DNA of 64,000 nucleotides from NCBI RefSeq assembly GCF_000024985.1, contig NC_013523.1, forward strand, positions 62,001 to 126,000, read 5' to 3'. Below the pieces are notes generated by a model. The model saw only the letters and a program-made list of their open reading frames with translations, searched no databases and had not been told where the DNA came from. Shown here one piece after another: positions 50,132-55,021 of the stretch. A program made the translations under genes and the position numbers. Position 1 is the stretch's first letter; each line of letters opens with the position of its first letter. The stretch is from Sphaerobacter thermophilus DSM 20745. Lineage in GTDB: Bacteria > Chloroflexota > Chloroflexia > Thermomicrobiales > Thermomicrobiaceae.

Positions 50132-51355
50132 ATGCGCTTCTGCTTTGTCCACGCCGCGGATCTGCACCTCGATACGCCGTTTACCGGCCTTGGGATGGTG
50201 CCGCCGGAGATCCGGCCGCTGCTGCGGGATGCGTCCCTCATTGCGTTCGACAACCTGGTGGGCCTGGCGATCGAGCGGGGCGCCGCCTTTGTCCTGCTCG
50301 CGGGCGGGATCTACGACGGGCCGGAGCTGGGCCTGCGGGCACAGGTGCGCTTCCGCCACGGTCTGGAGCGGCTGGCTAACCGGGGCATTCACGTCTTCCT
50401 GGTCGCGAGCGAGCGTGAGCAGCCCGGTGATTGGGCCGCGATCCGCGAGTGGCCGCCGAACGTGACCTGGTTCGCGCCTGGGGCGACCGCGCCGGTGCCC
50501 GTCGTCCGGGACGGCCAGCGGCTCGCCACCATCTACGGCGCCAGCGGGTCGTCGTGGCAGGGAACCCAGGGATTTGACCGGGTCGATGCGCCCGGCATCC
50601 ATGTGGGGTTGCTCCACGTCCTCGGCGCGCCAGATGAGCCGCCCACGGCGGGCATGGACTACTGGGCGCTCGGTGGCGAGCACGCCGCCCAGATCCTGGG
50701 CGACGGATCCCCGTGGCGAGTCTACCCCGGCACGATGCAGGGCCGTGGACCCCAGCCGGAGGAGCTGGGGCCCAAGGGTGCCATGGTCGTCCCGGTCGAG
50801 GACGACGTGGTCGGTCCGCCCGAGTTCGTGTCGCTGGCGCCGGTGCGGATTCTCTCCCTCACGCTCGACATTGCCGGCGTGCCGGATCTTGCGGCGCTGC
50901 GGGAGGACTTGCTGCTGCGCGCCGCCGCGCTCCGTGCGCAGCACCCCGTGTCGGGGCTGATCCTCCACGTCGCGCTTCACGGGGATGGCGCTGCCCGTAG
51001 GTCGCTCCTGGCCGATGGCGGGGCGGCCGCGCTCCTCCGGGATCTGCGCGCTCAGAGGTGGGACGGGTCGCCGTTCGTGTGGTGGGCGACGCTGCGCGAC
51101 GTGACCCGCCCGGCGGGTGCGGTGGCGGCGGCGCGCGGGCGGAGCGACTTTGCCGCCGAGGTGCTGCGGCTGGCGGAGGAGCTGGCTGCCGACCCCGCGC
51201 GGTTGCGTGAGGTGTTTGCGGACCGCCTAACCGTGCCACCGGATGGGGCGCTCGACCATTCCTCCGGGATCCCGGATGCGGCTGACGTAGCCGACCTCCT
51301 CGGCGACGCTGCGGCGCTGGCCGTCGATCTGCTGGAGGAGCGGGACAGGCCATGA
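50132..51355 (+). CDS. SbcD/YhaO-like (Mre11 family) protein with a degenerate nuclease site
   Basis: The start is ATG 50132 (MRFCFVHAADLHLDTPFTGL), giving 407 residues. The fold is that of YhaO/SbcD phosphoesterases: motif I AADLHLD (Asp10, His12) is intact, as is GLLHV (His162). Others are changed: the GD of motif II reads LLAGGIYDG (Gly59 for Asp), the GNHD of motif III reads ASEREQ (Glu94, Arg95), and GHxH reads GGEH (Gly182 for His). YPGTMQGRGPQPEELGPKG keeps the capping region apart from QGRH to QGRG. So most metal ligands are lost, and nuclease activity is unlikely. The gene overlaps the YhaN-like ATPase gene by 4 nt (ATGA), so the pair is kept as a unit and the protein may be structural. 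Confidence 0.85.
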   Translation: MRFCFVHAADLHLDTPFTGLGMVPPEIRPLLRDASLIAFDNLVGLAIERGAAFVLLAGGIYDGPELGLRAQVRFRHGLERLANRGIHVFLVASEREQPGDWAAIREWPPNVTWFAPGATAPVPVVRDGQRLATIYGASGSSWQGTQGFDRVDAPGIHVGLLHVLGAPDEPPTAGMDYWALGGEHAAQILGDGSPWRVYPGTMQGRGPQPEELGPKGAMVVPVEDDVVGPPEFVSLAPVRILSLTLDIAGVPDLAALREDLLLRAAALRAQHPVSGLILHVALHGDGAARRSLLADGGAAALLRDLRAQRWDGSPFVWWATLRDVTRPAGAVAAARGRSDFAAEVLRLAEELAADPARLREVFADRLTVPPDGALDHSSGIPDAADVADLLGDAAALAVDLLEERDRP

Positions 51356-54300
51356 GGATCGCGGGCTGGCACATCGACGGGTTCGGCGTCTTCCACGATA
51401 TCCAGGTCCGGGACGTGCCCCCGGGACTGACCGTCTTCCTCGGTCCGAACGAGGCGGGCAAGACGACGCTGCTGGCGTTCATCCGGCAGATGCTCTTTGG
51501 CTTCCCCAGCGACGCCGTCCGCGAGCGCGCCTATCCGCCCCTTCGCGGTGGGCGCCACGGCGGGCGCCTGGTGCTCATCGGGCCGGACGGGGAGTACGTG
51601 GTCGAGCGCAGCGCGGATCTGGGGCCGGGGGCGCTGGTGACGCTGCCCGGCGGGGGCCACGGCGACGAAACGGACCTGGCCCGGCTGCTCGGCGGTGCCG
51701 ACCACCGGCTGTTTCAGACGGTCTTTGCCTTCAGCCTCGCCGAGTTGCAGGACTTCGCCACGCTCGATGCCGAGGGGATGCACGACCGGATCTTCTCGGC
51801 GGGGATCACCGGCGCCGGGCGCTCCACGCGCGCGGCCGTCGCCCGGCTCCGTTCCCGGCAGGAGGCGCTGCTTGCGCCGCACGGAGATGGCCGCATCAAC
51901 GAGCTGCGGGCCCGGCTGGAGGAGGTGGAGCGGCGGCTGCGGGAGGCCCGCCACGTCGCGGCCGGGTACGCTGAGGCGCTGCGCTATGAGGCGGCGTGCG
52001 CGGCCGAGGTCGAGCGGCTCGGCCGCGAGATCGAAGAGCACCGTGCTGCGCAGGCTCGCTATCGCAAGCTCGAAGAACTCTGGCCGATCTGGTATCGACG
52101 CCGGGACGCCGCCGGAGAGCTGGAGCGACTGGAGCCGGTCGGGACCATACCCGAGCGGGCCGAGGCCCGGCTCAGCGAGCTGCGTGCGGCGATCGACGCC
52201 GCGGAACGGCAGGTGGCGGAGATCGCAGCCGAGGTGGACGCAGCCGAGGCGCGCCGGCAGATGCTCACGCCCGACGACGCGCTTGCGGCGGTCAGCGAGG
52301 AGGTCGTTCAGCTCTACGAGACGCTGCCGCTCTATCGCGACCGCCTTGTCGCGGTCCCGGAGGTGACGGCACGGCTCCGCCGAGCACAGCAGGCGCTGAA
52401 TGACCACCTGCGCGACCTCGGTTCCGGCTGGGACCGCGCGCGCCTGGCCGGGTTCGACCGCTCGCTGTCCAAGCGAGAGGAGGTCCGCTCCTTCGCCGAG
52501 GCGCTGGAGCAGGCCGAGGCGGCGGTGATGCGCGCCCAGGCCGTGGCCCGGCACGCCGCCGAACAGCGCGAGCAGGCCGCGGCAGCGCTGGACGCGCTGC
52601 GCCGGGAGCTGGAGACCGCCCCGCCCGCACCCGACGCGGACGAGGTAGACCGGCTCGATGCGGCCGTCCGCCGCGTGCGGACCGCCGTCGCCGAGCGGGC
52701 GAGTGTGCAGGCACGTATCCAGGCGGCGACCGAAACGCTGCAGCAGATCGAGTCGCTGCGCGAGCGCGCCGAGCCGACTTCGAGCGCGATCTCGCCGAAC
52801 TGGGTCCGGCTCGGGCTCTGGGGCCTGGCCCTGGCGCTTGGTGGGCTGGCCGCGCTGGTGAGCGATAGCGATGTCTCACCGCTCCTCGCCCTGGCCGCGG
52901 TGCTGGCGGCCGTTGCCGCCCTTGTCGCCGGGCGGCGTGCGTCGGAGGGGGTCACGCTCGACGGCGCGGTCAAGGAGACTTTCAGCGAGCAGCAGCAGCG
53001 TATCCAGGGAGATCTCGACGCCTATCAGGCCCGGCTGCGTGCGATCGATGCGGCGATCGAGGCCGACGCGAAGGTGCTCGAGCTGTCGACCCCGCCTGAT
53101 GAGGCGGCGGTGGAGGCCGCGGCTGAGCGGGTCGCACGGATGCGCGCGGCGCAGGATGAACGACTGCGCAGGCACCTGGACATCGAGGCTGCCGAGACGC
53201 GGCTGCGCGATGCGGAAACGGCGAGTGAGCAGGCCGACGCGGCCGTCCGCGACGCCACCGCCGAGCGTGACCGCGCCCAGGGTGCGTGGGACGACTGGAA
53301 GCGGCGAGAGGGTGTGCCGGCCGAACTGACGCCGCGCGGGGTGCTCGACTTCTTCGAGTCGATCGGGCAGGGCCGCGAGGCGCTGCGTGAGGTGGAAGCG
53401 GCCGAGCGGGAGGCCCGGCAGATCACCCAGTTCGTCGTCGCCTTTGAGCGCCGCGCGGGGGAGGCGCTGGGTGCCGTTGGTCTGCCGGCCGATGCTCGGG
53501 GGCTCGAGCTGGCTACCGCGATCGAGAAGCTGCGGGAGCGCGTCGAGCGCGACCGGGAGATTCGACGCGAGCGCGCGGCGGTCGAAGAGACCCTGGGGCG
53601 CCTGCGATCCCGTCTGGTAGCCGCCCAGCGCGACCGCGACGGCCTGCGCGACCGGTGGGCCGCTCTCCTGGCTGAGGTGGGCGCCACGAACGAGGCCGAT
53701 TTCTACCGCCGGCTCGACATCGCCCGCCGCCGCGAGGAGCTGGCCGCGGTGGTCCGGGAGTGCGACCAGCGGATCGCCGAGCAGATCGGCGACGGCCCCG
53801 CGGCCGCGCTGATGCGCGAGGAGCTGGCAACCGGTGCGGTCGACCGCTGGCAGCGCGCGGCCGAGGACGCCGGTCGGGCCATGCTGGCGGCCACCGAGGC
53901 GCGCGATCGGGCCATCGCCGCTCGCCGCGAGGCAGAGTTGGCCCGGCGGCAGCTCGAGAAATCGACCGAGATCGCCGACCTCGAGCTGGAGCATGCCGGG
54001 TTGCTCCAGGAGTATGCCGAGGCCGTGCGCGCCTGGCGCGTCGCGGGGCTGGCTGTGGGGTTGATCGAGGAGACGCTGGCGCGCTACGAGCGCGAGCGGC
54101 AGCCCGCAGTGCTGGCCTACGCGTCACGGCTGTTCCACGACATCACCGGCGGGCAGTACACGGGACTCCTCCAGCGTGACCGCCACCTCGTCGTCCTCGA
54201 CCGGGACGGGCGCGCCCGCGCGCTCGACACCCTGAGCCGGGGCACGGCCGAACAACTGTATCTCTGTATCCGCCTCGGGCTCGCGGCGGAGTTCGCCCGG

Positions 54301-54540
54301 CGAGCGGTCGCCCTGCCGCTGGTGATGGACGACATCCTGGTCAACTTCGACCCCGAGCGTGCCCGCGTTGTGGCCGAGGCGCTGGCGGCCGTCGCCAAGC
54401 AGCACCAGGTGCTCCTCTTCACCTGTCACCCGGAGACCGCGGACCTGATCCGCGAGGTAGCCCCCACCAGCGGCCAGTACCTCATGTCCCGCTACGGCGG
54501 CGAGATCCGCCCCGTTCCCTCTGGATTGACGGCGGGGTAG
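51352..54540 (+). CDS. YhaN/SbcC-like AAA ATPase with coiled coils and two membrane helices
   Basis: This 1062-residue protein starts at ATG 51352, overlapping the SbcD-like stop. Walker A is FLGPNEAGKTTLLAF near residue 31. Coiled coils flank a hydrophobic hairpin at about residues 483-530 (LGLWGLALALGGLAALV then LLALAAVLAAVAALVAG), the typical YhaN membrane anchor. The ABC signature region LSRGTAEQLYLCIRLGLAAE lies near residue 960 and Walker B LPLVMDDILVNFDPERARVV near 988; FTCHPETADLI is the H-loop. All ATPase motifs are intact. In better-studied relatives the partner nuclease works with this SMC-like ATPase in DNA-end processing; here the partner is degenerate. Confidence 0.9.
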   Translation: MRIAGWHIDGFGVFHDIQVRDVPPGLTVFLGPNEAGKTTLLAFIRQMLFGFPSDAVRERAYPPLRGGRHGGRLVLIGPDGEYVVERSADLGPGALVTLPGGGHGDETDLARLLGGADHRLFQTVFAFSLAELQDFATLDAEGMHDRIFSAGITGAGRSTRAAVARLRSRQEALLAPHGDGRINELRARLEEVERRLREARHVAAGYAEALRYEAACAAEVERLGREIEEHRAAQARYRKLEELWPIWYRRRDAAGELERLEPVGTIPERAEARLSELRAAIDAAERQVAEIAAEVDAAEARRQMLTPDDALAAVSEEVVQLYETLPLYRDRLVAVPEVTARLRRAQQALNDHLRDLGSGWDRARLAGFDRSLSKREEVRSFAEALEQAEAAVMRAQAVARHAAEQREQAAAALDALRRELETAPPAPDADEVDRLDAAVRRVRTAVAERASVQARIQAATETLQQIESLRERAEPTSSAISPNWVRLGLWGLALALGGLAALVSDSDVSPLLALAAVLAAVAALVAGRRASEGVTLDGAVKETFSEQQQRIQGDLDAYQARLRAIDAAIEADAKVLELSTPPDEAAVEAAAERVARMRAAQDERLRRHLDIEAAETRLRDAETASEQADAAVRDATAERDRAQGAWDDWKRREGVPAELTPRGVLDFFESIGQGREALREVEAAEREARQITQFVVAFERRAGEALGAVGLPADARGLELATAIEKLRERVERDREIRRERAAVEETLGRLRSRLVAAQRDRDGLRDRWAALLAEVGATNEADFYRRLDIARRREELAAVVRECDQRIAEQIGDGPAAALMREELATGAVDRWQRAAEDAGRAMLAATEARDRAIAARREAELARRQLEKSTEIADLELEHAGLLQEYAEAVRAWRVAGLAVGLIEETLARYERERQPAVLAYASRLFHDITGGQYTGLLQRDRHLVVLDRDGRARALDTLSRGTAEQLYLCIRLGLAAEFARRAVALPLVMDDILVNFDPERARVVAEALAAVAKQHQVLLFTCHPETADLIREVAPTSGQYLMSRYGGEIRPVPSGLTAG

Positions 54541-54610
54541 GGAACGGCGCGAGCTCGCATGGTGAGGCAGCTCCCAGGAGGCATGGAGGTCAACGAATAG
54601 GGACCCGAGC

Positions 54611-54675
54611 GTGGCCCGTGCCCGGGGGTGAACCCCCGGGCTGACAACGAAAGCCCGCTGAAGCGGGCTGGGGTG
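54611..54675 (+). repeat. REP single unit (family 1)
   Basis: GTGCCCGGGGGTGAACCCCC then GGGCTGACAACGAAAGCCCG, ending with the perfect second palindrome AGCCCGCTGAAGCGGGCT. A short family 3 remnant, CATGGAGGTCAACGAA, lies just upstream near 54582. Confidence 0.82.
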
Positions 54676-54718
54676 GAACAGAAGTGTCACCCTGGCGTTG
54701 AGTGCCCGCCGTCCGGTA

Positions 54719-54913
54719 GGTGTCCGGGGCTCAAGCTGCCGGGCTGAATAGTGGAAAGCCCACTGAAGGGCTGTGATGCCGACATGTGGGCGTATCCGAT
54801 CCGGCCTCCCACCGGACGCCGCGTCCCCACCCCCTTCAGTGGGCTTCGCTTCCTAGCCCGGCGGCTTGAGCCGCGGGCACGTGCCACGACGTGAGAACCT
54901 TGGCACTACCCAG
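54719..54913. repeat. REP head-to-head pair (family 1, spacer subtype A)
   Basis: A forward unit (TCCGGGGCTCAAGCTGCCGG) and a reverse unit (CTTCAGTGGGCTTCGCTTCC) enclose a spacer starting GTGATGCCGACATGTGGGCG. It is homologous to the pair at 16283-16490 (GTGATGGCGACATCCCGGCG). The outer tail GCCACGACGTGAGAACCTT is present on the right. Confidence 0.82.
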
Positions 54914-55021
54914 TCGGCTGCCCGCCTCCCGCCTTGACATAGCCCCCGCTCCAGCCCAGACTGCCGGGAAGCGTACCCACAACCGGGCCGCGGTTCGCGG
55001 CCGAGCAGAGGAGTGTCGGTG

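Follow-up and report, generated by a model that had tools for sequence, protein, structure and literature searches.

A YhaO/Mre11-type protein of Sphaerobacter has lost half of its nuclease site and is kept by purifying selection directly upstream of an intact YhaN-type ATPase. We consider it well supported that this protein is a retained pseudonuclease, while the roles assigned to the pair below are predicted from sequence. The locus lies in the window, by which we mean the whole analysed stretch of 64,000 nucleotides, in a genome of the genus Sphaerobacter consisting of two contigs and 3.99 Mb.

Nuclease site, fold and partner of the window YhaO

The yhaO frame at 50132-51355 is open, starts with ATG and has AGGGGG upstream of the start. 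Active-site residues were mapped by aligning P. furiosus Mre11 (PfMre11, 1II7) through a 17-member YhaO family profile, which matches 1II7 at 1.9e-16. The features of the gene are listed below with their PfMre11 equivalents.

50132..51355, + strand: YhaO/Mre11-type protein with a dismantled nuclease site, 407 aa (from ORF translation, alignment and fold model)
50159..50167, + strand: motif I, D10-L-H12, retained (PfMre11 D8, H10)
50306..50308, + strand: G59, replacing the motif II Asp (PfMre11 D49)
50411..50416, + strand: E94-R95, replacing the motif III Asn-His (PfMre11 N84-H85)
50615..50617, + strand: H162, retained (PfMre11 H173)
50675..50683, + strand: G182-E-H184, first His of GHxH lost (PfMre11 H206, now G182), second kept (PfMre11 H208, now H184)
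51352..51355, + strand: ATGA overlap of the yhaO stop and the yhaN start

Four of the eight active-site residues are gone, and the window YhaO does not carry the complete two-metal site of Mre11/SbcD (DxH, GDxxD, GNHD, H, GHxH). The first-pass annotation had listed D10, H12, H162 and H184 as kept and G59, E94-R95 and G182 as replacements, and the 1II7 mapping agrees with it at every position. The open frame and the 4-nt overlap with the ATPase gene that it described were borne out as well. The ATGA overlap likely couples the translation of yhaO and yhaN.

When the window YhaO alone was used as a query, neither Pfam Metallophos nor NCBIfam was matched, nor any relevant PDB sequence, and the protein stays below the curated family score (TIGR00619 / Pfam Metallophos); Metallophos is matched by 15 of the 17 members of the YhaO family alignment. 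Tree and sequence place it within the YhaO relatives, orthologues from other families within the order (G032/G025) being 30-37% identical to it, and a YhaN-type ATPase follows directly downstream (AAA_27 E 4.6e-16, ATGA overlap). A first model that lacked a deep alignment had low confidence (pLDDT 52); its structure search was consistent with Mre11/SbcD and is given no weight. The AlphaFold model was of moderate confidence (pLDDT 68, pTM 0.69); its best 50 PDB matches were all Mre11/SbcD chains, with 4lu9 and 7yzo at the top (E about 4e-12). An Mre11 fold is predicted for the window YhaO at this moderate model confidence.

The ATPase gene has the following features.

51352..54540, + strand: YhaN-type SMC-like ATPase, 1062 aa, with an AAA_27 N-terminus
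51442..51468, + strand: Walker A GPNEAGKTT, residues 31-39, intact
52804..52941, + strand: central hydrophobic hairpin, residues 485-530, family-wide; no CxxC zinc hook
54232..54246, + strand: ABC signature LSRGT, residues 961-965, intact
54316..54351, + strand: Walker B PLVMDD (residues 989-994) and D-loop NFD, intact

Walker A, signature and Walker B, described earlier as complete, were all found, and with the hydrophobic hairpin they make up the full set of YhaN/SbcE ATPase features. A new activity at the membrane had also been suggested on account of this hairpin. As a special trait of the window pair this was rejected: a central hydrophobic segment occurs in 18 of the 20 partner ATPases scanned, nearly all of them adjoining intact nucleases, so the hairpin is a family trait and no marker of the pair. 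A known defence system was rejected too, since PADLOC gave only weak partial matches to the ATPase (best mad3, LmuB) and none to YhaO.

Distribution of the losses and selection on the pair

The same four substitutions are present in a second, independently sequenced species, Sphaerobacter sp. HOG56 (L011; L003), whose YhaO is 88% identical to that of the window and whose gene order is the same. They are therefore not sequencing errors, and the case raised in the first-pass annotation, that only this strain is degenerate, does not apply. A scan of genome contigs found the locus in HOG56 only; in a third Sphaerobacter genome (G002) the contig stops in the neighbouring gene, before the locus, and the comparison is one of two Sphaerobacter genomes. 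The expectation that orthologues share the substitutions held for HOG56 and failed for wider orthologues, which keep the full site. The site survey sampled the Chloroflexota, in which 44 relatives have a complete site: G032, which belongs to the same order as Sphaerobacter, 29 others, and 14 from the class of G444, with group f24 as the more distant clade among the intact relatives. As the wider orthologues have the full site, the loss is lineage-specific, and it happened at least twice.

The second case, G025, is one record in a fragmented assembly. Its YhaO keeps motif II (GDSYD) and has GSAD for GNHD and GGRH for GHxH. Both Sphaerobacter and G025 lost the equivalents of Asn84, His85 and His206, that is, three of the four residues lost in Sphaerobacter, and both kept those of Asp8, His10, His173 and His208. 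In a YhaO tree built with the motif columns removed, G025 groups with the intact G032, G188 and G196 (support 99/97 and 97/95), and one ancestral loss common to both lineages was rejected by the AU test (p 0.0037; 0.0016 after the distant rows were left out). Since long branches would pull Sphaerobacter and G025 together, this rejection is probably conservative. A loss aimed at metal ligands above other invariant positions, of which 5 of 23 were lost, was not significant (p = 0.18), so the common loss pattern is suggestive only.

The YhaO/YhaN pair of G025 (L045:3103-6287) has lost both its nuclease site and the Walker A and signature, with the frames open. The ATPase is shortened to 661 aa. 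It keeps Walker B, but its Walker A reads GQSAAGGST and the LSRGT signature is missing. A working ATPase is thus not always kept beside a dead nuclease.

Comparing the two Sphaerobacter species gives a dN/dS of 0.205 for YhaO (95% interval 0.137-0.287), with 0.193 in the N-terminal and 0.223 in the C-terminal part, and 0.182 for YhaN. It is lower elsewhere, at 0.066-0.097 for the neighbours and 0.109 for a complete paralogue. The window YhaO is kept by purifying selection under weaker constraint than its neighbours, and its dN/dS of 0.21 rules out a pseudogene. It has the marks of a pseudoenzyme under selection: in more than one species its catalytic residues are lost and its frame is kept, and dN/dS is below 1. 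The retained pseudonuclease proposed from the first reading is supported by the losses shared between two species, by this dN/dS, by the intact ATPase and by other complete Mre11-type proteins in the genome.

The weaker constraint also bears on a reading of the locus as a decaying operon, in which an old pair, redundant beside a complete second pair, is being lost and the dead site is an early step. The raised dN/dS relative to the neighbours, the length of the Sphaerobacter YhaO branch, which exceeds the branches of close intact relatives about threefold, the erosion of other invariant YhaO residues, the loss of Walker A and signature in G025 and the sporadic presence of YhaO, in 4 of 158 genomes of the class, would all fit such decay. 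However, both halves of YhaO show a dN/dS far below 1, two species at a dS of about 0.3 have kept the two genes and their ATGA overlap intact, and G025 keeps about 1060 codons of two mutated genes open. We regard decay as unlikely.

The genome search for a further complete SbcD that had been proposed at the outset gave two loci with complete sites: an SbcD adjoining a HerA-type ATPase (TIGR00619, 152 bits), and a second YhaO/YhaN-like pair on contig 2, which also has a complete Walker A. This SbcD, above the curated cut-off, lies directly after the HerA-type ATPase and not beside SbcC (L085:4793-7885, contig 1 near 1.095 Mb); an SbcC-like ORF is found elsewhere (C1:2038075-2040618). The contig-2 paralogue family forms a separate clade distant from YhaO (support 100/100), and G025 holds a complete orthologue of this second pair. 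A dead YhaO was found where the second pair is present, in two independent events; the absence of the second pair from G032 (83% complete) is not firm. The YhaO-bearing genomes of the G444 class have a single match each at E <= 1e-50, all intact. Eroded sites were also seen in the second YhaO-like family (L134 and L135, from G050 and G058), with GEQD in G050 and AGN and GDHD in G058; site erosion is therefore not confined to YhaO and recurs in the order. Complete YhaO/YhaN pairs occur on IMG/VR contigs called viral (L097-L101), which are possibly bacterial flanks or prophage cargo.

Proposed role of the pair

We propose that the window pair is a YhaO/YhaN pair (SbcE-type, Mre11/Rad50-like) in which a non-cutting YhaO provides structure and DNA binding to a working YhaN, a reading that we hold to be rather probable. 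YhaO would be unable to cut by the known two-metal mechanism and would be kept as the structural, DNA-binding partner. As YhaN binds and hydrolyses ATP, a YhaO2-YhaN2 clamp would open and close on DNA ends or membrane-near DNA, and the complex would hold, tether or mark breaks. Cutting would be left to the complete contig-2 pair, the HerA-linked SbcD or other nucleases. The loss of nuclease activity, the formation of the complex and the tethering are thus all predicted properties, and a DNA- or ATPase-regulating role of YhaO, put forward in the first pass, appears plausible. The locus suggests a repair nuclease turned into a non-cutting DNA-holding machine.

ScMre11 needs Asp56, His125 and His213 for both its endo- and its exonuclease activity; nuclease-dead yeast Mre11 alleles with a stable complex keep telomere-length maintenance and the DNA-damage response (PMC6315862). 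A yeast motif I mutation is cited there as also impairing complex stability (Krogh 2005, cited in PMC6315862). When Mre11-Rad50 is closed with ATP bound, DNA is tethered and the nuclease is blocked (PMC6315862). Motif I is exactly what both dead lineages keep, and its retention with the rest lost, beside an intact ATPase, would fit a tethering role. More tentatively, Mre11/Rad50-type machines may have repeatedly become non-cutting clamps in the order around Sphaerobacter, with the ATPase working (Sphaerobacter) or both sites gone (G025) and the second pair cutting; we would give this broader view somewhat less than even chances.

The residues on the metal 1 side (D10, H12 and H184), possibly with E94, might instead hold one metal and sustain a changed reaction, on another substrate or as a weak single-metal phosphodiesterase. 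If the ligand-to-metal assignment of PfMre11 applies, as we presume, what disappeared in both dead lineages is the metal-2 ligands (Asn and the first His of GHxH) and the catalytic His, and what both retain is the metal-1 side (Asp, His and the last His). The bridging Asp, however, is also gone in Sphaerobacter, the kept residues can equally be structural, and single mutations at the equivalent yeast residues abolish activity (PMC6315862). We regard a remaining enzyme as improbable. Still less credence is due to a heterodimer of the dead YhaO and the complete contig-2 paralogue with a half-active nuclease head. Mre11 does form a dimer (PMC6315862), and the complete paralogue is present in both dead lineages, but it lies beside an ATPase of its own and is no more than a distant relative of YhaO.

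Relation to known systems

The preferred reading, a non-cutting YhaO beside a working YhaN, can be set against several known systems. Bacillus YhaO/YhaN (SbcE) has the same gene order, nuclease-like then SMC-like ATPase, whereas the window nuclease-like subunit lacks half of the active site and no yhaM gene follows the pair. SbcE (YhaN) is cited as acting in Bacillus double-strand break repair (Krishnamurthy 2010, cited in PMC3896406, PMC4205851), and yhaONM of B. pumilus is induced with the SOS regulon (PMC3896406). With Mre11/SbcD of Mre11-Rad50 (SbcCD) the window YhaO has in common the predicted fold and the partnership with an SMC-like ATPase; it differs in lacking GNHD and the motif II Asp, in having GGEH for GHIH, and in a partner without the CxxC hook. 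The B-subunits of eukaryotic replicative polymerases, which stem from the Mre11-like nuclease DP1 with catalytic residues lost, are likewise Mre11-like phosphodiesterase domains without catalysis kept as subunits (PMC6355029), but with another partner (a polymerase) and another domain layout. The Mimivirus R555 Mre11/Rad50 fusion also has a non-canonical metal site, with Asp at the His206 position (PMC3175470), but R555 keeps the other catalytic residues. Natural Mre11 pseudonucleases or a nuclease-dead YhaO/Mre11 pair were not found in the literature searched, which was covered in part.

Cutting-dependent and ATP-driven DNA-holding roles of Mre11-Rad50 are usually probed with laboratory point mutants. 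Here a thermophile offers a ready comparison: its nuclease-dead pair is natural and under selection, the order contains intact orthologues, and the site was lost independently a second time. Nuclease function cannot be assumed for YhaO/SbcD-like genes.

Just downstream of yhaN, at 54610-54915 of the window, lies a dispersed palindromic repeat of about 270-300 bp with AAGCCCACTGAAGGG/CCCTTCAGTGGGCTT arms. Rfam gave no match near the locus, including this repeat. Roughly 40 copies are spread over both contigs of the genome (129 matching pieces at about 70-85% identity), with further copies in the two other Sphaerobacter genomes.
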